Virus record (IMG/VR): IMGVR_UViG_3300044646_000729
Coordinates: 1-29,936 of that record
DNA from: a virus
Length of the DNA stretch: 29,936 nucleotides
Direction: 5' to 3' (one strand)
Under the pieces are notes generated by a model that was not told the DNA's origin, ran no database searches, and worked only from the letters and a program-made list of their open reading frames with translations. Both the position numbers and the translations under genes were made by a program. Numbering within the stretch: position 1 is the first letter of the stretch; each line of letters begins with the position of its first letter. Below, one piece after another: positions 3,247-29,936 of this stretch.

Positions 3247-3483
3247 TTACGCGAGTTTATCAATAAATACGAGGAGCGATTTAATATCGGTTTTATAAAA
3301 GTCCGCGATCTCCGAAACAATATCGTATCGTAAAAGTTGAACGTCTTTTTTTACGGCCCAAAGGCGAATAGTTTGCTCCGACATTTCGGTTACTCTCGCG
3401 ATCCTTGTACGGAGAATTTTCTTTTTAAGTTCGTCGTAAACGTGAGGTTTTAATTCGGCGGCGACTTTTTTAAATTGTGGCAT
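3247..3483 (-). CDS. Small HTH-like protein
   Basis: 78 residues, basic N-terminus. Residues about 26-50 (RIARVTEMSEQTIRLWAVKK) read as a helix-turn-helix: a helix, a short turn, then SEQTIRLW as the recognition helix. The rest resembles the tail of XRE/phage regulators in which a hydrophobic helix follows. It is the first gene behind the early promoter at 3485-3510 (the ATG abuts the leader) and heads the recombination operon, so an early regulator is the natural reading. The fold assignment rests on pattern only, and I cannot say whether it activates or represses. Confidence 0.8.
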   Translation of the reverse strand: MPQFKKVAAELKPHVYDELKKKILRTRIARVTEMSEQTIRLWAVKKDVQLLRYDIVSEIADFYKTDIKSLLVFIDKLA

Positions 3484-11135: not shown

Positions 11136-11393
11136 TTATTTTTTTGATTTAACTTTTTTATTTGTGATTACTTTTTTCGGTTGCGATTTTTTGATAGTCG
11201 TTTCCTTTTTAATTTCTTTTTTCGGTTGCTCTTTTTTTACCGATCCGATCTTTTCGATAATCGTTCCGAGTAAAGCGGGATTTTTCTTAATAAAAAACTC
11301 CGCGAGTTCGTCCGTTAAATCCTCGGGTTTAATCAAGGATTTCGGGCCGTTGGGCCTCAACTCTTGGCCCTCTATTATTTTATAAATCGCCAT
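11136..11393 (-). CDS. Small Lys-rich-tail protein in head operon
   Basis: 85 residues. The first 50 residues form a small alpha/beta unit with LTDELAEFFIKKNPALLGTI. The last 35 are almost all Lys, Glu, Gln and Thr (KKEIKKETTIKKSQPKK), probably disordered and able to contact DNA. It has the same layout as 9018-9245. Its start overlaps the protease stop as TAATG and it ends 6 bp before capsid. It could be a capsid-interior or decoration protein. No family is firmly recognised. Confidence 0.75.
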   Translation of the reverse strand: MAIYKIIEGQELRPNGPKSLIKPEDLTDELAEFFIKKNPALLGTIIEKIGSVKKEQPKKEIKKETTIKKSQPKKVITNKKVKSKK

Positions 11394-12556
11394 TACTTCG
11401 AGAACGTTTCGCGATTTGCTTTATCGATTGCGATCCTTTTCTCCCAAGGCTTTAAAGGAGCGTCAGTTTTCGTTTCGTTTTTCTTTTCGGCTCTCTTATC
11501 TCCGGCGACCGATTTTTTATAATTTGCGATTTCGGTTTTCAGTTTGTTAACCTCCTCGATAATCGCCTCGTTATTTGTGTCGTTTGACTTTGCGGCCAAC
11601 TCGTCGGCAAGTCTTTTGTTTTCCGCCTCAAGATCGGCGATCTTTTTCGCGTTGTCGTCAACTTCAACCGGACGGATTTCCGTAACGGTTCCCTCGAAAA
11701 TAACGATTACTTCTCCGGTGTCGAGAGTATGTTCGCCGTCCTCCGCCATTACTGATAAAGCCTCGTCGGTAAAAACTTTCGTTCCAACTTCCAAGGTATC
11801 GCCCTCAAAGTAAAGAGTAACGCCGTCCTCCGCCGTAACGGTTGCGTTTTTCTTTTCGGGTTTCAATAAGTTTAAGATCGCGTTAACTCCTTTTTCTAAA
11901 AGAGATATTTTTTTATTTTGCTCCTCGATATTCATTTTATTATCGTTGTTTGATTTATATTTATTAAATATTAATTCAGTATAAGCGGCCTTGGCTTTTT
12001 TACGCTCGAGGGTTCCGGTTGCGAAACCTAAGTCGATCGCTCTTTGAGTTCCGAGGTCGGTATCTTTTGACATTAAATCCCGTACGATCGATTGATCCGA
12101 GTCGTTTAATTTTAGGGAGTCTTTATAAAAGTTGAAAATTTTATCCTCCGAGTTGCGAACGTCCTCCGCGATTGCGTCGAGTTCGTCGGCGGTTAAAGGC
12201 ATATTTCCCAAGTTCGAACCGTCGATCCAAGGGTTATGAATTACAAACTCCGCGTTTTTCGAAAGTAGTCTCTCCGATCCGGCTAAGAAAACAACCGTCG
12301 CGATTGAATTAACTTTATAACCTTTCGTTATTATTTTTTTACCGGAGTTAATAAGTTTGTCGTGAATTGCAAATCCGGTCGTTACCGATCCGCCGTTCGA
12401 GTCGATCTCGATTTCGAAAGTATCGGCCTCGGGATTGGCGTCGATAAAGTCGCCGATCATTTGCGCGTTTGTCGAGTCGTCAATTACTCCGAACGCGGCG
12501 AGGAAAGGATCAGGCTCTCCGATATTTCCCGAGATTTTAAATTTCGCGACTTTCAT
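11393..12556 (-). CDS. ClpP-like prohead protease fused to scaffold-like tail
   Basis: 387 residues. Residues 1-185 are an S14/ClpP-like domain: EIDSNGGSVTTGFAIHDKL (about 50-68, oxyanion and substrate strand), a nucleophile candidate Ser84 in KVNSIAT, His107 in EFVIHNPW, and Asp165 or Asp167 in SKDTDLGTQRAIDLG. Such proteases cut scaffold and capsid N-termini in prohead maturation. Residues about 208-387 hold a coiled coil, a beta-rich insert (about 235-300, with VTAEDGVTLYFEGDTLEVG) and a second coiled coil (about 305-350), consistent with a built-in scaffold. It is the first gene behind the late promoter at 12562-12569, only 5 nt upstream of the ATG. Confidence 0.85.
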   Translation of the reverse strand: MKVAKFKISGNIGEPDPFLAAFGVIDDSTNAQMIGDFIDANPEADTFEIEIDSNGGSVTTGFAIHDKLINSGKKIITKGYKVNSIATVVFLAGSERLLSKNAEFVIHNPWIDGSNLGNMPLTADELDAIAEDVRNSEDKIFNFYKDSLKLNDSDQSIVRDLMSKDTDLGTQRAIDLGFATGTLERKKAKAAYTELIFNKYKSNNDNKMNIEEQNKKISLLEKGVNAILNLLKPEKKNATVTAEDGVTLYFEGDTLEVGTKVFTDEALSVMAEDGEHTLDTGEVIVIFEGTVTEIRPVEVDDNAKKIADLEAENKRLADELAAKSNDTNNEAIIEEVNKLKTEIANYKKSVAGDKRAEKKNETKTDAPLKPWEKRIAIDKANRETFSK

Positions 12557-12561
12557 TAATA

Positions 12562-12569
12562 CAAATGTA
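12562..12569 (-). promoter_or_regulatory. Head-operon promoter -7 element
   Basis: On the minus strand, TACATTTG matches TAnnTTTG and is followed by TATTA and then the ATG of the protease gene. The 5-nt gap implies a leaderless or nearly leaderless mRNA. No TTG lies 17-23 bp upstream. Instead a TTTGGTACTTAAT motif (12607-12595) ends 34 bp upstream. The plus-strand RHH promoter -7 element is only 7 bp away on the other side. Confidence 0.7.
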
Positions 12570-12576
12570 AATTGAT

Positions 12577-12584
12577 TATATTTG
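12577..12584 (+). promoter_or_regulatory. RHH gene promoter -7 element
   Basis: TATATTTG on the plus strand is a perfect TAnnTTTG match, 54 bp upstream of the RHH start at 12639. It forms an inverted pair (7 of 8 bases) with the head promoter element at 12562-12569, separated by 7 bp. Polymerase at one would cover the other. Two putative operators lie 10 and 31 bp downstream. Confidence 0.65.
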
Positions 12585-12594
12585 ATCTTGATTT

Positions 12595-12607
12595 ATTAAG
12601 TACCAAA
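12595..12607. repeat. Putative operator O1 (ATTAAGTACCAAA)
   Basis: First of two identical 13-bp copies. The core fits an imperfect dyad, TTnnGTACnnAA, as expected for an RHH dimer site. It lies in the leader of the RHH gene and 34 bp from the divergent head promoter -7 element (distance measured from its CAAA end). Confidence 0.6.
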
Positions 12608-12615
12608 CTAAAATA

Positions 12616-12628
12616 ATTAAGTACCAAA
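12616..12628. repeat. Putative operator O2 (ATTAAGTACCAAA)
   Basis: Identical to 12595-12607. Start-to-start spacing is 21 bp, two turns of B-DNA, so two bound dimers would sit on the same face and could cooperate, as is known for Arc and MetJ family repressors. It ends 10 bp before the RHH start codon. Confidence 0.6.
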
Positions 12629-12638
12629 AAACGAAAAA

Positions 12639-12797
12639 ATGAGCAAACCGAAAACTTTAAAAACGAGAGTCTCTCCCGAAATTCACGAAAAGTTTAATAA
12701 AAAATGCGAACAACTTTTTGGAAACAAACGGAGCGCGGATAAAGTGATCCGAAAACTTGCGATTAAATTTAACAACGGAGAAATAAATCTCGATTGA
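12639..12797 (+). CDS. Ribbon-helix-helix (Arc/CopG-like) regulator
   Basis: 52 residues (MSKPKTLKTRVSPEIHEKFN to the end NGEINLD), the only supported plus-strand gene. The pattern is a basic N-terminus, a beta strand TLKTRVS, helix A EIHEKFNKKCEQLFG, a turn NKRSAD, and helix B KVIRKLAIKF. This is the RHH dimer fold. The ATG follows ACGAAAAA, an A-rich start like the others. It ends with TGA at 12795-12797, one base from the tape-measure stop, so the two genes converge. Minus-strand read-through from the tail operon would produce antisense to it. Promoter, two operator-like repeats and divergent layout suggest an autoregulated switch for late genes. An antitoxin is unlikely, since no toxin gene is adjacent. 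Confidence 0.85.
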   Translation: MSKPKTLKTRVSPEIHEKFNKKCEQLFGNKRSADKVIRKLAIKFNNGEINLD

Positions 12798-12798
12798 A

Positions 12799-15700
12799 TT
12801 ATCGTAAAGTTGCGGCGATTTTATTTTGAGCGAGTTGATTATTTACTCGGTTTATATCCGTAACCTTTGTAATTATTTGAACGTTCGAAATCGCGTCCGA
12901 TATTTGCGCGGCGAGTTTATCCGTCGCGATCGCGTTAACTACTCCGGCCCTAATATCGTTCGCCGTAAATCCTCCGTCGGCAAATCCCGACAAACCTAAC
13001 GAGGATATTTTTCCGAGTCTCATTCTCTCAAGAGTTGAAACGAGAGCCGATCCGGTTTCCGTTTTTAAAATTTTATTCGGGACGACGTACTCGCCTTTGT
13101 GGTATGTATAACTTTTACGGCCCAAGGCTCGAGACTCCTCGCGAGGATTTCCGTCTCCGGTATATCCTCCCTCGTAAAACGGCGGCGGCGGCGGTTGTTG
13201 AGCCGCAATGATTCCGATTTGTACGGCTCCGGTCGCGGCGGCTACTCCGGCGAGTACGGCTCCGACAAACGGAACCGGATTAGCAAGGGCCGCAATTACG
13301 GCGGACGCGGTCGAGATAATTGCTTGAGTTATTTGAACGCCTTTATTAAAATTGAATTGATCGACGTCGAGTTGATATTTTTTCCGCGCGGTTTCCTCGT
13401 TGATCTTTTCGATTTGTTTTTGTTTTTGCTTTTCGGTTAAAGTTGTTTTTTCAATCGCTTTAACTTGCGCGGCTCCGAGTTGCTCAACTTGCGCGGTCGC
13501 TCCATTAAACGCCGCGTTTACCGCGTCGGCTAATGATCCAAAAACTTGCGAAACAATATCGGCGACTTGTTTAAATTTCTCCTCGAAATCTTTTGGTATT
13601 ATCGCGATCGGTTGTTCGTTTATTTGCTTGAGTTGGATTTCTAATTCGCGGAGTTTTAGTTTCGCCGTTTCGATATTTGCGACCTCCTCCGGCGTAATTA
13701 GATTGTCAACTTTCGCCGACTCCTCCGCGATCCTTAATAATTCTTTTTGAGTATCGATTTCGAGTTGTATCAACGCGATCGATTTCTTTTTCTCGTCCTT
13801 TATCGTTTCCTCAATATCGAGACGCCTCGCCTCTTTTGATACGGCTAAGTTTATAACTTGAATATCGAGACGCCTTTTCGCCTCCTCTTGATCCTTGGCC
13901 CGACGTTGAGCGTTAAACTTTTCGACGATTTCCTCTTGTTTATTTGCGGTCTCCTCGTCGATCTCAAGTAAAAGTTTTTGCAATTCAATACGCGCTTTTT
14001 CTTTTTCCGCTTTTTCTTTTTCGTTTGTCGCCTTGAGATTTTTAAACTCCTCGAGGAGTTGTAATTTTTGGCGATCTTGCGCGGTAAATAACGCCTCGAT
14101 TTCCTGTTTTTGTTGATCTTGTATCGCCTCGGTTTGTAAATCTTTACTTTGTCCGAGTATCTTTTTTTGAAAAGCGAGGATCGCCGTTAAATTATCTTGA
14201 GTCGACTTTTTTGTTTTGTCTCCGGTTGTTGTTACTTGGCTTTGTAAATTTACTAACTCTTGAGTTAATTCGTCGACTCTTATTTTTTGCTCGACATATC
14301 CGAGGATCGCTTGATCGTTTACGTTCTCTCCGACTTTCAAGAGTCGATCTTGATTTCCTCCGTAATCATTTTGCGAGTTAATAACGTTGTCGATATTCTT
14401 TTTTAATTTATCTTGATTTGAGATCGAGTCGAGTTCCGCTTGTATTCTTTTTCGATCCTCGTCGTTCGTTGCTTTTTTAAGTTGCAAAATTAAATCTCCG
14501 CGTTTAACTTGACTCTCATTTAAAAACTCTTGTTTTTGGAGGAGATCAGTAATCGCCGCCTCGAGTTGCGTCTCCTTTATTCGAGCGGAGATTTTTATTT
14601 GAATGTTTTTAATTACTTGCTCTTGAGCCTTGGCAACCGCCGCCAAAAACGCGGCCTCGTCCGACAAGTTTTTTAAAGTAGTTCCATACGTCGAATTGAC
14701 TTGGTCGATTAATTGTTTACGTTGTTTCGATCCGGCGTTCGATTTTTGTAATTCTCCGAAAAGTTTTGTCGCTTGAACGACCTCTTTTATTTCCTCCTCG
14801 CGTAATTTTTCCGTCGCCTCTTTTAAATTCTTTTCCGCCTCGGTTAATTCGACGACCTTTGTTTTATTACGAGCAAGGTACGCGATTAATAATCCAAGTC
14901 CAACAACCAACGCGCCGACTCCCGTTGTCGCGAGTGCAATCTTAAACGCCTTTAACGCTCCGGTCGAGGCTCCGATAACCGTTGTATAAACGATTTGAGC
15001 CGCCGTCGCCGCCTTTGTTTTTACAAGTTCAATCGTCGATATAATCGCGCCTTTTGACTTGGCGATATTTGCCGCCGTTTGAGCGATCGCGACCGCTTGT
15101 AAAGCCTTTTTTTGAACCTCTTGAATATCCTCGCTCTCTCCGAACGCTATCGATAACAATCCAATGGAGGACGTTAAAGCCGTCGCGGCTTCGAACGTGT
15201 CGTCCATTGCCTCTTTTGCGGGATTTTTTGGCTCCTTATTTCCAAACTCGTCGACTTTTCCGATTGCTTTATCGATCTCGAATTGAGTCTCGCGGATCGC
15301 CTCGTTTGTTTTTTTATACTCCTCGGAATTTAAGTCAAGCGTCGGAGCGAGTTTTTTTAAATCGGAAAGTTTTTCCGTCATTCCCTCGAGAGTATTGTCG
15401 TACTCTTTTACGGATTGTTTTCCGGCGTTAAATCCGATCTCCGTTCTCTTGATCTCTTGATCTAATTCGGCGAGAGATTGATCGATCGACATAACGGCGG
15501 AGTCGACCGACTCGATCGAGGAGGAGGTTCCGTTTAACGACGCGTTGAAATTATTAACTCCCTCGGTTGTCGCGTTGAGTTTCGAAATTCCCGCGCCAAA
15601 TCCGAACGGTTTTTTATTTATGTTATCTTGTTGCTCTCCGCTTTGTTTTAACGCCTCCTTTTGAGCGAGTAACGCTTCGCGTTGTTTTAACAATGGAGCG

Positions 15701-16191
15701 AGAGTTTCCTCGAGAGCCTCCTTATAATTACCTACATTTCGCCGATTATCTCCGACGGCGGACTCGTTTTCTTTTAACGTGTCGGAAATTCCTTTAATTG
15801 TTTTTTGCAACGCTTGGCCCTCGGCGGAATTTTCTCTCGCCTCTTTACTCAATCCGTTATAAGTTTTCGTTAACGCCGAAAGTTGTAAACGGAGTTGTTC
15901 GTTCGATCCCTCTTGCGCGTTGTTGAGTTTTATTTGAAACTCGATCTCCTTATTATTCGCGGAGATTTGTTTCGAGTATTCTTTCGTTTTACGGCCCAAC
16001 TCGAGGAGTTGATCCTCGATCTCTTTTCGTCGTTCAACTCCCGTATTTTTATCGTTTAACTCTTTGTTGAGTTTTTTCGTTTCCTCTTTTAATTTGTTGA
16101 GGGATTTTTGTAAAACGTCGCCTTGTTTTTCAAGATCGGACGGATCGAGTTTAACTCGGAGTAAAACCTCTTTTGTAATATTGTCCGCCAT
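12799..16191 (-). CDS. Tape measure protein
   Basis: 1130 residues, the longest gene. Long charged coiled coils cover about residues 15-165 and 455-900, with a hydrophobic segment about 415-445 (GALVVGLGLLIAYLARN) and a second Ala/Gly/Ile-rich hydrophobic stretch about 954-1007 ending in PPPPPF. The following GGYTGDGNPREESRALGRK and HKGEYVVPNKIL is the typical C-terminal signature of tape measures in Bacteroidota phages. The protein sets tail length and is injected with DNA. At roughly 1.5 angstrom per residue the tail would be near 170 nm (inference). It is followed convergently by the RHH gene and preceded 5 bp upstream by the tail-tip gene. Confidence 0.93.
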   Translation of the reverse strand: MADNITKEVLLRVKLDPSDLEKQGDVLQKSLNKLKEETKKLNKELNDKNTGVERRKEIEDQLLELGRKTKEYSKQISANNKEIEFQIKLNNAQEGSNEQLRLQLSALTKTYNGLSKEARENSAEGQALQKTIKGISDTLKENESAVGDNRRNVGNYKEALEETLAPLLKQREALLAQKEALKQSGEQQDNINKKPFGFGAGISKLNATTEGVNNFNASLNGTSSSIESVDSAVMSIDQSLAELDQEIKRTEIGFNAGKQSVKEYDNTLEGMTEKLSDLKKLAPTLDLNSEEYKKTNEAIRETQFEIDKAIGKVDEFGNKEPKNPAKEAMDDTFEAATALTSSIGLLSIAFGESEDIQEVQKKALQAVAIAQTAANIAKSKGAIISTIELVKTKAATAAQIVYTTVIGASTGALKAFKIALATTGVGALVVGLGLLIAYLARNKTKVVELTEAEKNLKEATEKLREEEIKEVVQATKLFGELQKSNAGSKQRKQLIDQVNSTYGTTLKNLSDEAAFLAAVAKAQEQVIKNIQIKISARIKETQLEAAITDLLQKQEFLNESQVKRGDLILQLKKATNDEDRKRIQAELDSISNQDKLKKNIDNVINSQNDYGGNQDRLLKVGENVNDQAILGYVEQKIRVDELTQELVNLQSQVTTTGDKTKKSTQDNLTAILAFQKKILGQSKDLQTEAIQDQQKQEIEALFTAQDRQKLQLLEEFKNLKATNEKEKAEKEKARIELQKLLLEIDEETANKQEEIVEKFNAQRRAKDQEEAKRRLDIQVINLAVSKEARRLDIEETIKDEKKKSIALIQLEIDTQKELLRIAEESAKVDNLITPEEVANIETAKLKLRELEIQLKQINEQPIAIIPKDFEEKFKQVADIVSQVFGSLADAVNAAFNGATAQVEQLGAAQVKAIEKTTLTEKQKQKQIEKINEETARKKYQLDVDQFNFNKGVQITQAIISTASAVIAALANPVPFVGAVLAGVAAATGAVQIGIIAAQQPPPPPFYEGGYTGDGNPREESRALGRKSYTYHKGEYVVPNKILKTETGSALVSTLERMRLGKISSLGLSGFADGGFTANDIRAGVVNAIATDKLAAQISDAISNVQIITKVTDINRVNNQLAQNKIAATLR

Positions 16192-21954: not shown

Positions 21955-22443
21955 TTATTCGGTTTCAAGAGGTTCGTTCGACTCGGTAAATATATCGATC
22001 CCGCTCTCGGTTAAAAGTATGTTAGACGCGCAATCTATTTTTGAATTAATTGTAAAACTTAAACCGTAACCCGATACCGTTCCGGCGAGTTGACGATATT
22101 CGGGAGTTTTTAAAACGTTGCTCAAGTTCAAACTCGAGGACGCGTTTAAAGCAAATAAAAATATATCGGAAAGGTCGTCCATTTCGGCGATAATTTCCTC
22201 GCGCCTTTCGTTCGTTGTCGCGGGTGTATCTTGTTGCCAAAACATTAGGACGACGGTATGTTTAACGTTATCGTTCGAAAGGTCGTACTCCGATTGTACG
22301 GGTAATAAATGGATTTGAGGAAACGGCCCGTCGTACTCGAGCGATCCGTCCGTCCGGCGACCGTGAACGAAGCGACCTTGAGGCGGAGGATTTACCGTAT
22401 TCGCAACGTTTCGGATTGTATTAACGAGGCTTTGATAATTCAT
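21955..22443 (-). CDS. Tail completion/terminator-like protein
   Basis: 162 residues, alpha/beta. The segment order (MNYQSLVNTIRNVANTVN; PQIHLLPVQSEYDL; KHTVVLMFWQQDTPA; EIIAEMDDLSDIFLFALN) matches small Bacteroidota phage proteins that cap or complete the tail tube: helix, strand with Asp/Ser, central strand, then helix. The start codon lies 23 bp inside the -1-frame extension of the tail assembly chaperone (stop at 22421). Its identity as terminator is inferred. Confidence 0.65.
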   Translation of the reverse strand: MNYQSLVNTIRNVANTVNPPPQGRFVHGRRTDGSLEYDGPFPQIHLLPVQSEYDLSNDNVKHTVVLMFWQQDTPATTNERREEIIAEMDDLSDIFLFALNASSSLNLSNVLKTPEYRQLAGTVSGYGLSFTINSKIDCASNILLTESGIDIFTESNEPLETE

Positions 22444-23145
22444 TTTGACGTTTATAAATTTCGGTTAACTTTTCCTCGTACTCTCTTTTTTCTTTTTCGA
22501 AAATCAACGTCATATAAATAGTTTCCGCGTCGGTCTCGAGCAAGGTTTCGTATTTTGTTACGTCGCCTTTTGAAAGTGAGTACAGAGTTTTAAAAAATCC
22601 GTACTTATTAAAGTTCTCGACTCCGGCCTCCTCCTCCTCCTCGGAATATTTACCCTCGGTTAATTGTTTAAAGCGGTCGTAAAATCGAGATATTTGCGCA
22701 AAAAAAAATTCACTATTCCGAGGACTTTCGTAACGGGTTCGTTTTTAATATCTCGGTCGGTATAAACTTGAACGATCTCGGCTCCGGCGTTAATTGTGTC
22801 CTTGCCGTCAAGTTTCGCGATCGCTTGTTTCGCCTTTTCCAACTTGGCCCAACTTTGCAAACCGATATTAAAATCCTTGTACTCCTCCGGTTCGCTCGAC
22901 GTTTTTAAAATATCGTCGTATTCAAACGAGAACGCAATTACCGGAATGAGGTTAATTATATCGTCCGCGCGTAAAGTATTAATTAAATCGTAATCGATCC
23001 CGACAAGGATCGCGATACGTCTCTCGAGAGTACCGTCGTCGTAATTAACCAACTCGACGTATTTTTCGAAAGTTACCTCGTCCCAACTTGTCGGAACGTT
23101 TTTCGTTTCGACTCTTTTATTTGTTATAACTTCGAATTTTATCAC
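22421..23145 (-). CDS. Tail assembly chaperone, -1 frameshift product (gpGT-like)
   Basis: Fusion of residues 1-148 of the gene at 22660-23145 with 93 further residues read in the -1 frame after a T9 run (22708-22700). The extension is fully open from 22702 to its TAA at 22423-22421 and looks like a real protein: FYDRFKQLTEGKYSEEEEEA, then NKYGFFKTLYSLSKGD and IYMTLIFEKEKREYEEKL. That composition and helix pattern are typical for the T domain of G/GT chaperones. The 216 bp between the zero-frame stop and the next gene are otherwise unexplained. Total about 241 residues. Fusion and short form would recruit tail tube and tape measure. Confidence 0.85.
22660..23145 (-). CDS. Tail assembly chaperone, short form (gpG-like)
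   Basis: 161 residues from a GTG at 23145. No in-frame ATG occurs near the start, and the protein begins MIKFEVITNKRVETKNVP when GTG is read as Met. The motif VPTSWDEVTFEKYVELVNYD (about 17-36) is typical of Bacteroidota tail assembly chaperones. The short form ends FFLRKYLDFTTALNN at 22660. A T9 slippery run near its 3' end gives the long form. The GTG start lies only 4 nt after the -7 element at 23150-23157, with a second element 19 bp upstream. Confidence 0.85.
   Translation of the reverse strand: MIKFEVITNKRVETKNVPTSWDEVTFEKYVELVNYDDGTLERRIAILVGIDYDLINTLRADDIINLIPVIAFSFEYDDILKTSSEPEEYKDFNIGLQSWAKLEKAKQAIAKLDGKDTINAGAEIVQVYTDRDIKNEPVTKVLGIVNFFLRKYLDFTTALNN
22700..22708 (-). other. T9 slippery site for -1 frameshift
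   Basis: The minus strand reads AAT TTT TTT TTG in frame, nine Ts in a row, within codons 146-149 of the chaperone gene. This provides the heptamer T TTT TTT, a known type of -1 slippage site. The -1 frame is open for 93 codons afterwards. The zero frame stops 37 bases downstream of the run, at 22662-22660. No clear downstream pseudoknot is identified by eye. Confidence 0.8.
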
Positions 23146-23149
23146 AATA

Positions 23150-23176
23150 CAAATATAATTTTAATCGACAAATATA
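23150..23176 (-). promoter_or_regulatory. Tail-operon promoter, tandem -7 elements
   Basis: On the minus strand two perfect TATATTTG elements occur at 23176-23169 and 23157-23150, 19 bp apart. The proximal element is followed by TATT and the GTG start. The bases TATTTGTATT match the head promoter closely (TACATTTGTATTA ATG). The proximal element has no -33 TTG at 17-23 bp, but a TTTGGTACTTA motif ends 34 bp upstream, exactly as at the head promoter. The terminator of terL lies immediately upstream. Confidence 0.7.
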
Positions 23177-23184
23177 AACCGGAC

Positions 23185-23195
23185 TAAGTACCAAA
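23185..23195. repeat. Third copy of TAAGTACCAAA motif
   Basis: Same 11-bp core as both copies at 12595-12628. The last base of the adjacent -7 element (23157) and the CAAA (23192-23195) are separated by 34 bp, identical to the distance at the head operon. It overlaps the A-run of the terL terminator. Confidence 0.6.
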
Positions 23196-23220
23196 AAAAA
23201 TCCTCCCTTGAGAGAGAGGA
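23193..23220 (-). terminator. Intrinsic terminator after terL
   Basis: On the minus strand, TCCTCTC (23220-23214) pairs with GGGAGGA (23207-23201, one T-G pair) around a 6-nt loop, followed by T8 (23200-23193). It ends the terS-terL unit and is directly followed by the tail-operon regulatory motif and promoter. Confidence 0.82.
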
Positions 23221-23293
23221 CTTTTTCGGAAACTACTATTAAAACCAAAACTTGAGGCCGTAAAGTTATAAAATTTTATTATCAGTTTTTCGA

Positions 23294-23304
23294 TAAGTAC
23301 CTAA
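23294..23304. repeat. Degenerate fourth motif copy
   Basis: TAAGTACCTAA differs from the other copies at one base. It overlaps the terL stop codon at 23301-23303. A weak -7-like TAACTTTA (minus, 23268-23261) lies 32 bp downstream in the transcription direction, with no gene start close by, so function is doubtful. Confidence 0.35.
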
Positions 23305-24608
23305 TAATTACGAGATCGTATTCTCGGAGGAGGAGAGAGTTCGAAAAACATTCTCAAGGCCAAGGCGTCCGAAATATCCGGCGATCGTCCGATCAATTCC
23401 TTTACTTTATCTTTTGGGATTATCGAGAGGCGGGAGTCCTTGTCGATATTGTTTCGTTTTACTTGCTCGAGTTCCTCGATTAATTTTTCTTTTGTAACGT
23501 TATCGCAATCGATCCAACCGATTTGATTTGAGTTTATAAAATCCGCAAGTTTAAAATAACATTGAGATTTTAAGTTTTGATAGTTCTCTCCGTTTAACGC
23601 TCTCGAGTTGTTAACGAAACCTTTGCAACCGGATAAGAGGTCGACGGCCCCTCCGCCGACTCCGTCCTCGTCGATAACGACTTGCGACCTCGGGATCGAA
23701 TGTTTTACCTCTAGGGATTTAATCGCGTCGACAACCTCAACGATTGACGATTTCGGGATCAATTTATAATTGATTACCTTGAGGCCGTCCCAAACGATTA
23801 AAACGGTTTGATCGTCTCCAAATCGAGCAACGTCGGCGGATAAATATTTATTCCCTTTCGTTTGAAAGTTGTTCGTAAAAATATTCGTTATCGCGTCGAA
23901 ATTAATCAGTCTCGCCGGATCGTCGTCGTATTCCCAATTTCCGAAAAGGAGTCTCTCCTTTGAAACCTTGTCGAGCGTTTTCAAGTTCTCGAGGTAATGT
24001 TTTGAGATATAAGGATTATCCGTCGCGAGGGATTGAATAACGGCCCTATTTTTATTTATTGATCCGTCGCGCCAAGGTTTATAAAATTGCGAGTACGTCC
24101 AATTTTTCGCGGGGTTGCAAGTGTATAAAATTTTAGGGATCAAATTATTCTCGTCGAGTTTGTATCGAATACGGGATTTTAAAATCTCTTTACATTTCTC
24201 CGTTATTTGATTAGCCTCGTCAACGAACGCGCCGGATATTTCCAACGATCCGAGTTCGTCAAAATTGGGATCGCTCGGATAATTAAACAAGTCCTTGAGC
24301 AATATCTCGGAACCGTTGAAAAACGTTATTAAATTCGATTGATAGTTTATTTTGTAATGAACATTTCGCGCGATCCCTTGCAACCGAAACAAATCAAAGA
24401 GCGAGTTTAACGTCGTCTCCTTTAAAGTTTTTAAAACGGATCGTCCGATTAACCAACGAGTCGCCGGATATTGTATCGCGTTTTTTGTAATCCAATAACA
24501 ACCGAAAACGGATTTACCTCCTCCGGCCCCTCCTCCGAAAAGTAACTCGGTCGTTTGTTTATCCTCGAGGAGATTGATCGCCTCCGTTTGCTTTTTCGTT
24601 AATCTCAT
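23301..24608 (-). CDS. terL: Terminase large subunit
   Basis: 435 residues. ATPase: Walker A FGGGAGGGKS (about 24-33) and Walker B LEISGAFVDEAN (about 129-140). Nuclease: first Asp in LSADVARFGDD (about 253-263), VVIDEDGVGGG (about 309-319) and the last acidic site in GRSPDISDALALR (about 409-421). All the catalytic residues expected of a headful or cos terminase are present. It packages DNA through the portal. It overlaps terS by 50 bp and is the last gene before a strong terminator. The tail and head operons follow in the same direction. Confidence 0.96.
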   Translation of the reverse strand: MRLTKKQTEAINLLEDKQTTELLFGGGAGGGKSVFGCYWITKNAIQYPATRWLIGRSVLKTLKETTLNSLFDLFRLQGIARNVHYKINYQSNLITFFNGSEILLKDLFNYPSDPNFDELGSLEISGAFVDEANQITEKCKEILKSRIRYKLDENNLIPKILYTCNPAKNWTYSQFYKPWRDGSINKNRAVIQSLATDNPYISKHYLENLKTLDKVSKERLLFGNWEYDDDPARLINFDAITNIFTNNFQTKGNKYLSADVARFGDDQTVLIVWDGLKVINYKLIPKSSIVEVVDAIKSLEVKHSIPRSQVVIDEDGVGGGAVDLLSGCKGFVNNSRALNGENYQNLKSQCYFKLADFINSNQIGWIDCDNVTKEKLIEELEQVKRNNIDKDSRLSIIPKDKVKELIGRSPDISDALALRMFFELSPPPRIRSRNY

Positions 24609-24945
24609 TATCCGAATATTTTTCCTCGATCCAATTAACCGGAATTTTTGAAACGTCGATCTCTTGTCGTTCGATATATCCTCGATCTTTACATTTTGTT
24701 TTCGCCATAAAAATAATAACGGCGGTATCGTTGAGATTTAATTTCTCGACGAGTTTTTTCTCGATCAGGTCTTTTAATTGTTCGCCGTAATCCGCCGCGT
24801 CAAACTCCGCCTTAAATTCGGGATCGTCTCGGAGCCAAGCGTAATGAGTTGATCGAGAAATCCCGACGGCGGCGGTTGCCTCGGTAATATTTCCGAGAGT
24901 AGTTTTCAACGCGTCGAGATATAATATTTTTTTTTGTTCTAACAT
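24559..24945 (-). CDS. terS: Terminase small subunit
   Basis: 128 residues. Residues about 18-40 (NITEATAAVGISRSTHYAWL) are a helix-turn-helix of the terminase small-subunit type, followed by RDDPEFKAEFDAADYGEQLK and an oligomerisation helix (KDLIEKKLVEKLNLNDTAV). The protein recognises the packaging start on phage DNA. The terL ATG lies 50 bp inside the terS end in another frame, an unusually long overlap that ties their expression. The upstream gene ends 15 bp away. Confidence 0.88.
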   Translation of the reverse strand: MLEQKKILYLDALKTTLGNITEATAAVGISRSTHYAWLRDDPEFKAEFDAADYGEQLKDLIEKKLVEKLNLNDTAVIIFMAKTKCKDRGYIERQEIDVSKIPVNWIEEKYSDNEINEKANGGDQSPRG

Positions 24946-29759: not shown

Positions 29760-29936
29760 ATCTTTTCAAAGTAATGTAATCCGATCAACGGGTTTAAAAA
29801 GTTACTTGAGGAGCGTTAATATTAATTTCGGCTTTAACGTTTCCGCCTTTGAGTTGTCTCTCTTTATATCGAGAGCCTCGGAGGTTTGGATTTTCCTCTT
29901 GTAATTTCCGGCGGACGCGCGTAATATAGTCCGCCG
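29760..29936. repeat. Terminal direct repeat, right copy
   Basis: Second copy of 1-177, with differences at 29887 and 29890. Joining 29759 to position 1 restores an uninterrupted gene order from 35-391 to 29093-29704. Confidence 0.95.
29794..29936 (-). CDS. Partial copy of the gene at 35-391
   Basis: C-terminal 47 codons (without N-terminus) of the putative DNA-binding protein, present because the contig ends overlap. The stop corresponds to that at 35. It is not a second gene. The two synonymous differences make it a variant allele rather than an exact duplicate. Confidence 0.9.
   Translation of the reverse strand, partial: ADYITRVRRKLQEENPNLRGSRYKERQLKGGNVKAEININAPQVTF

Follow-up and report, generated by a model that had tools for sequence, protein, structure and literature searches.

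The head and tail operons of a phage with Bacteroidota-type promoters appear to be joined in one late regulon that is encoded by the phage itself. In the reading favoured here, which is given a probability of roughly 0.57, an RHH-like protein binds a short DNA box, activates the head and tail promoters, and represses its own gene. It is probable that the 52-residue product of a small divergent gene is the binder of this box and, given binding, activation is a good deal likelier than repression. The fixed distance of the box, its covariation within genomes, and its co-occurrence with the gene were read from the sequence; from these we infer binding, activation, and timing.

The window, which is the whole stretch of DNA analysed, is a 29,936-base virus record. 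Its two ends (1-177 and 29760-29936) share a 177-base repeat with two mismatches. This overlap suggests that the phage genome is probably complete, with a length of about 29.76 kb, and circularly permuted or terminally redundant; the two mismatches probably reflect two variants mixed in the assembly. The minus strand carries all convincing genes except that of the regulator (Table 1), which the first-pass annotation had rightly described as alone on the plus strand. The other plus-strand ORFs are antisense to minus-strand genes, and those that were checked show protein conservation mainly in the nearest relative, as shadow frames would. The absence of lysogeny genes, claimed in the same annotation, holds for what was scanned. 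A 78-residue product encoded at 3247-3483 (minus strand) shows a weak HTH signal (E 0.053 against Cro/C1 HTH, short of the cut-off). Its gene lies behind a TATATTTG promoter, is conserved in G001, G003, and G006, and may encode a second regulator.

Table 1. Features of the window, from the terminase end to the head end (positions of the window).
Feature	Position	Strand	Remarks
Helicase loader and primosomal genes		-	
Terminase, small subunit	24559-24945	-	
Terminase, large subunit	23301-24608	-	
Possible extra box, TTAGGTACTTAT	23293-23304	-	2 mismatches; overlaps the terminase stop codon; only in the window and G001
Intrinsic terminator after the terminase gene	23202-23217	-	T-run enters the tail box
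Tail-operon box, TTTGGTACTTAG	23184-23195	-	Centre 40 nt from the 3' edge of the tail -7 element
Tail operon -7 element, TATATTTG	23150-23157	-	Predicts a leaderless mRNA; GTG at 23145
Tail operon	from 23145 down to the tape measure gene (12799-16191)	-	
Tail operon gene 1	22660-23145	-	161 aa; N-terminus M[ILV]xF conserved
RHH-like regulator gene	12639-12797	+	52 aa, 52 codons; basic, pI 10.0
Box 2, identical copy 21 bp upstream of box 1	12617-12628	-	Only in the window lineage (window, G001, G002)
Box 1, TTTGGTACTTAA	12596-12607	-	Centre 40 nt from the 3' edge of the head -7 element, about -44.5; also in the early transcribed region of the regulator gene
Regulator -7 element, TATATTTG	12577-12584	+	Consensus kept in G001, G004, and G006
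Head operon -7 element, TACATTTG	12562-12569	-	Predicts a nearly leaderless mRNA; ATG at 12556
Head operon		-	Protease (12556), likely capsid gene, portal; then holin and exonuclease genes
Head maturation protease (ClpP-like), head operon gene 1	11393-12556	-	PF00574, 5e-12; phrog_94, 6.5e-30

The window was compared with related IMG/VR contigs (G001-G007), and the rest of the set was obtained through capsid and terminase relatives. Full-length copies of the regulator gene are present in five IMG/VR contigs (G001, G002, G003, G004, and G006) and a cut-off copy in G007. All full-length copies have an identical position and orientation, beside a head protease of 48-100% identity (that of G001 is 90% identical to the protease of the window). 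The relative G005, a 20.9-kb fragment with 46% protease identity, has the same gene order with only a short gap between the tape measure and protease genes. It is the sole relative without both gene and box: the regulator is missing, and neither the head nor the tail promoter carries a box. Because the lineages compared are related, they count only in part as independent tests. Terminase relatives more remote than these (L040 onwards) were set aside: the genes that follow their terminase are arranged differently, and there is no tail promoter to compare. Contig L038 (IMGVR_UViG_3300037042_004169) has a tail promoter without a box; it ends before the regulator locus and therefore does not test the co-occurrence of gene and box. 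If the model is true, L038 would be expected to lack the regulator.

What connects the two structural operons? Two identical 13-bp motifs, 21 bp apart, had been noticed in the regulator leader, and ATTAAGTACCAAA is indeed found exactly at 12595-12607 and 12616-12628. In 20 shuffled versions of the window, exact matches to its 12-mer core averaged 0.0. A core sequence, TAAGTACC, is present four times in the window; every copy is on one strand, either in the regulator leader or between the terminase and the tail operon. Read on the minus strand, the box TTTGGTACTTA lies upstream of both structural promoters, and at each of them 40 nt separate its centre from the 3' end of the -7 element. Box 1 has counterparts at 39 nt in G001, G003, G004, and G006, and the tail box has counterparts in G001 (one half degenerate), G003, G006, and G007. 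The box of G003, TTTAGTCCTTA, and that of G006, TTCAGTACT[AT]A, each precede both structural promoters, and 39 nt separate their centres from the -7 edge; the tail box of G007 is of the G003 type, and the consensus is near TTnAGTACTnAA. The tandem repeat was ruled out as an essential operator, since G003 and G006 keep only the promoter-proximal box. The possible third box in the window lies 109 bp upstream of the tail box.

At each of the ten promoters with a box (in the window, G001, G003, G004, G006, and G007), 39-40 nt separate the centre of the box from the 3' edge of the -7 element. This is what is looked for in a late activator: a common site at a fixed position upstream of late promoters. 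When whole genomes were scanned with the head box of each lineage, the best other site was the tail promoter (23195 in the window, 5087 in G003, and 24947 in G006), while box matches with at most one mismatch are expected by chance 0.0-0.45 times per whole genome. The chance of a tail box falling within 1 nt of the head spacing is 3e-6 to 8e-5 per lineage. This recurrence at tail promoters of three lineages, with fixed spacing, makes it highly improbable that the 52-codon gene is simply an autoregulated accessory gene inserted between the tape measure and protease genes, with the tail box a coincidence or relic, for all that it is the sole gene on its strand and is missing at this very junction in G005.

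Comparison of head with tail promoters of the same genome in three lineages finds the boxes identical at 11/11, 11/11, and 10/11 positions and the spacers at 6/24, 9/23, and 8/23. The first of these pairs is from the window, where the two promoters align without gaps from the box through TTTGTATT. The spacers have diverged to chance level and the boxes match within each genome. Across lineages the box varies (GGTAC, AGTCC, CAGTAC), and head and tail boxes of one genome agree with each other, an indication that the binder is encoded by the phage. Were it a host factor, the box should tend to stay the same in phages of similar hosts, whereas a drifting phage protein would take its sites with it. 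Moreover, the box overlaps the regulator leader in every lineage for which leader sequence is available (the window, G001, G002, G003, G004, and G006). A box retained with the gene in its own leader is as would be expected of an autoregulator.

The -7 element of the Bacteroidota sigma-A type, TAnnTTTG, is present at the promoters of the window; in Flavobacterium, sigma-A promoters carry TAnnTTTG at -12 to -5 (PMC9723704). The window contains 36 sites of TANNTTTG against 19.3 expected, and none of 100 shuffles reached 36 or more. The regulator -7 element of G003, TATATTGC, is one base off the consensus, and the head -7 elements of G001 and G003/G004 are one base shorter (TAnTTTG). At the tail promoter, G001 keeps the -7 element at 23150-23157 but not a distal TATATTTG (23169-23176 in the window). 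A -33 TTG at 17-23 bp is absent from the candidate promoters of the window. This absence was considered as a sign of activator dependence and dropped, because other candidate promoters in the window also lack a -33 element. A study of B. thetaiotaomicron notes that no -33 motif had been found in F. johnsoniae (PMC7366714).

At the head end, the -7 elements form the inverted pair reported in the first-pass annotation: TACATTTG (12569-12562, minus strand) and TATATTTG (12577-12584, plus strand) are separated by 7 bp (12570-12576). The spacing of this pair is 6-8 bp in all five phages compared, so that simultaneous occupancy by two polymerases is impossible. A local divergent switch between the head operon and the regulator had been proposed on these grounds. 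Comparison supports its core, in which the two promoters exclude each other and a protein bound at the repeats would shut off the regulator gene in favour of the head promoter: the relatives retain the divergent gene, the inverted -7 pair 6-8 bp apart, and the promoter-proximal box down to 48% protease identity. The tandem repeat on which it also relied is not conserved; among phages with the gene, the second copy is confined to the window lineage, and only the promoter-proximal box is shared. The proposal was also incomplete. The same box at the same distance before the tail operon argues for a late regulon of two operons and not for a local switch between head genes and an RHH gene.

Where would late transcription begin? 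From the -7 element to the start of the tail gene there are 1-5 nt in the window, G001, G003, G005, G006, and G007, and the conserved M[ILV]xF terminus of the tail gene product fixes the leaderless start. The tail mRNA of the window should begin at the first base of its GTG, judging from the position of the -7 element, and a leaderless or nearly leaderless tail mRNA is predicted across all relatives examined. The head gene is similarly near its -7 element in the window, G001, and G005; in G003 and G006 the gap is at least 13 nt. Few Bacteroidota transcripts have short leaders or none: in B. thetaiotaomicron about 3.7% of 5' UTRs are shorter than 10 nt (PMC7366714), and in F. psychrophilum 5.5% are leaderless (PMC9723704). 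The intrinsic terminator closes the terminase unit just before the tail box, which makes the tail operon dependent on its own promoter, and this layout of terminator and tail box recurs in G001, G003, G006, and G007.

The region of the first tail gene (22421-23145) contains a run of nine Ts at 22700-22708 on the minus strand. Downstream of it lie two overlapping frames conserved in five phages (NFFL.KYLDF and FFF.QISRFYDRF...EEEEEAG), the second without a good start of its own. From this arrangement the run looks like a slippage site for a tail assembly chaperone pair of the gpG/gpGT type.

Is the 52-codon gene real, and what does it encode? Codons that differ between the window and G001 comprise 10 synonymous and 0 nonsynonymous changes, and those between G003 and G004 comprise 7 and 0. 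By this measure, the gene is real and under strong purifying selection. No convincing homologue was found in GTDB genomes, GenBank phages, or plasmids, with two weak, insignificant matches among GenBank phages. The RHH identity assigned in the first-pass annotation is consistent with the sequence pattern and the predicted strand-helix-helix; it found no match in profile libraries and can be called plausible only. Searches of Pfam, NCBIfam, PHROGs, and PDB sequences returned neither RHH_1 (PF01402) nor any other RHH family, and PF01402 was absent even at E 10. A single-sequence AlphaFold2 model has a strand at residues 7-10 and helices at 13-27 and 30-39 (mean pLDDT 77), whereas a second model, from a 3-sequence alignment, was poor and lost the strand. 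Foldseek gave no significant match for the regulator model. A weak PDB profile match (E 1, residues 7-35) is to the DNA-binding domain of TraM (1dp3), an RHH protein. The significant PDB sequence matches are to designed low-complexity helical proteins and were discounted as support for the fold. Since the profile test failed and the single-sequence model has the right order of elements, the protein is treated here as RHH-like.

The boxes themselves are pseudo-palindromic, with 3-5 of 6 pairs, although at least 3 pairs occur in about 19% and at least 4 in about 5% of 12-mers of the window. If an Arc-like register is assumed, the predicted DNA-facing residues of the strand would be T6, K8, and R10 in the window, S6, K8, and Y10 in G003, and Q6, K8, and Y10 in G006. 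Box position 4 is G in the window and A in G003 and G006. This covariation between residues and box position 4 is only suggestive, since it represents a single change on the tree.

Taking the -7 element as -12 to -5, the box centre falls near -44.5 in the window, or -43.5 in the other phages, at both late promoters. This places it beside the contact of sigma region 4, a position typical of class II-like activators. Bound to the pseudo-palindromic box, some 44 bp ahead of the predicted starts of the head operon (12556 leftwards) and the tail operon (23145 leftwards), the regulator would occupy this class II-like position and may help the host sigma-A polymerase to start late transcription. At the regulator gene, the box centre would lie at about +12 to +14, within the early transcribed region, and a protein bound there should block initiation or promoter escape. 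With the box in the regulator leader and the promoters overlapping, a single binding event would silence the regulator gene to the benefit of the head promoter, and control of the tail promoter would be exerted in trans through its own box. The regulator gene, with its consensus -7 element, could be read first, and accumulation of its product may act as a timer for the late genes.

It is possible, if rather unlikely, that the regulator binds these same boxes but represses both late operons early, until replication of the genome titrates it and releases the late genes. All the cis evidence fits repression equally well, and most viral RHH proteins are repressors; SvtR, for example, is an autorepressor that also binds at a structural gene promoter (PMC5569661). 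However, the box lies upstream of the core promoter, at about -38 to -50, and not over the -7 element or the start. The nearly invariant spacing of 39-40 nt suggests contact with polymerase over occlusion, and the tail promoters of G003 and G006 have one box, not an array.

A still less probable explanation is that the box serves another factor, either the 78-residue HTH-like protein or a host regulator, and that the 52-codon gene is a mere neighbour. The first of these candidates has its Cro/C1 match and its homologues in three of the boxed phages in its favour, but the promoter of its own gene has no box. The overlap of the box with the leader of the 52-codon gene in every lineage also argues against this explanation, as does the joint absence of gene and box from G005. 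Furthermore, a box that changes between phages and agrees within each is unlike a host site.

The preferred reading, activation of both operons by the 52-residue protein, can be set beside several known systems. Ogr of phage P2 and C of phage Mu are small late-gene activators whose binding sites precede several late promoters by a set distance. The former is a zinc protein and the latter is of the HTH type; both act with E. coli sigma-70, have no known sequence relation to the regulator, and are not known to be divergent from a late operon. Arc and Mnt of Salmonella phage P22 are phage RHH proteins of about 50-80 residues that act at divergent promoters. By contrast with the role proposed here, they repress within the immunity region of a temperate phage and are not known to activate late genes.

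The nearest analogues are the archaeal virus proteins SvtR and AvtR, and by analogy the regulator may work like them in outline. SvtR is a small (6.6 kDa) RHH protein that represses its own gene and binds a structural gene promoter (PMC5569661), and it resembles the present case as a small viral regulator with a site at a structural promoter. The SvtR site is about 80 nt from the promoter and is repressing, whereas here the protein belongs to a bacterial phage, has a fixed site by the core promoter of both structural operons, and probably activates. AvtR, from Acidianus filamentous virus 6, is likewise an autorepressor, and through a shared region it can both activate and repress a neighbouring gene (PMC5569661). 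It differs in carrying two RHH motifs in one 11.9-kDa chain, in covering about 100 bp, and in having another RHH protein as its neighbour; the candidate described here is a single 6-kDa unit with single boxes at two distant operons.

A partial search of the literature found no late-gene activator in phages of Bacteroidota, and late timing with a -33/-7 polymerase is little described for these phages. The candidate presented here is a protein of about 6 kDa that would act through one box at two promoters. The chances are about even that, in a group of Bacteroidota phages, both structural operons have this protein as their dedicated activator, acting from a box at about -44 at late promoters whose mRNAs have little or no leader, and that the placement of its gene makes a single binding event serve for both late commitment and self-shutdown. 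The natural variants of protein and box in three lineages allow a specificity-swap test. The arrangement would also provide a sequence rule for late promoters in such phages: box, 39-40 nt, -7 element, start codon. If the model is true, this would be, as far as the searched literature shows, the first late-gene activator for phages of hosts with a sigma factor of the -33/-7 type.
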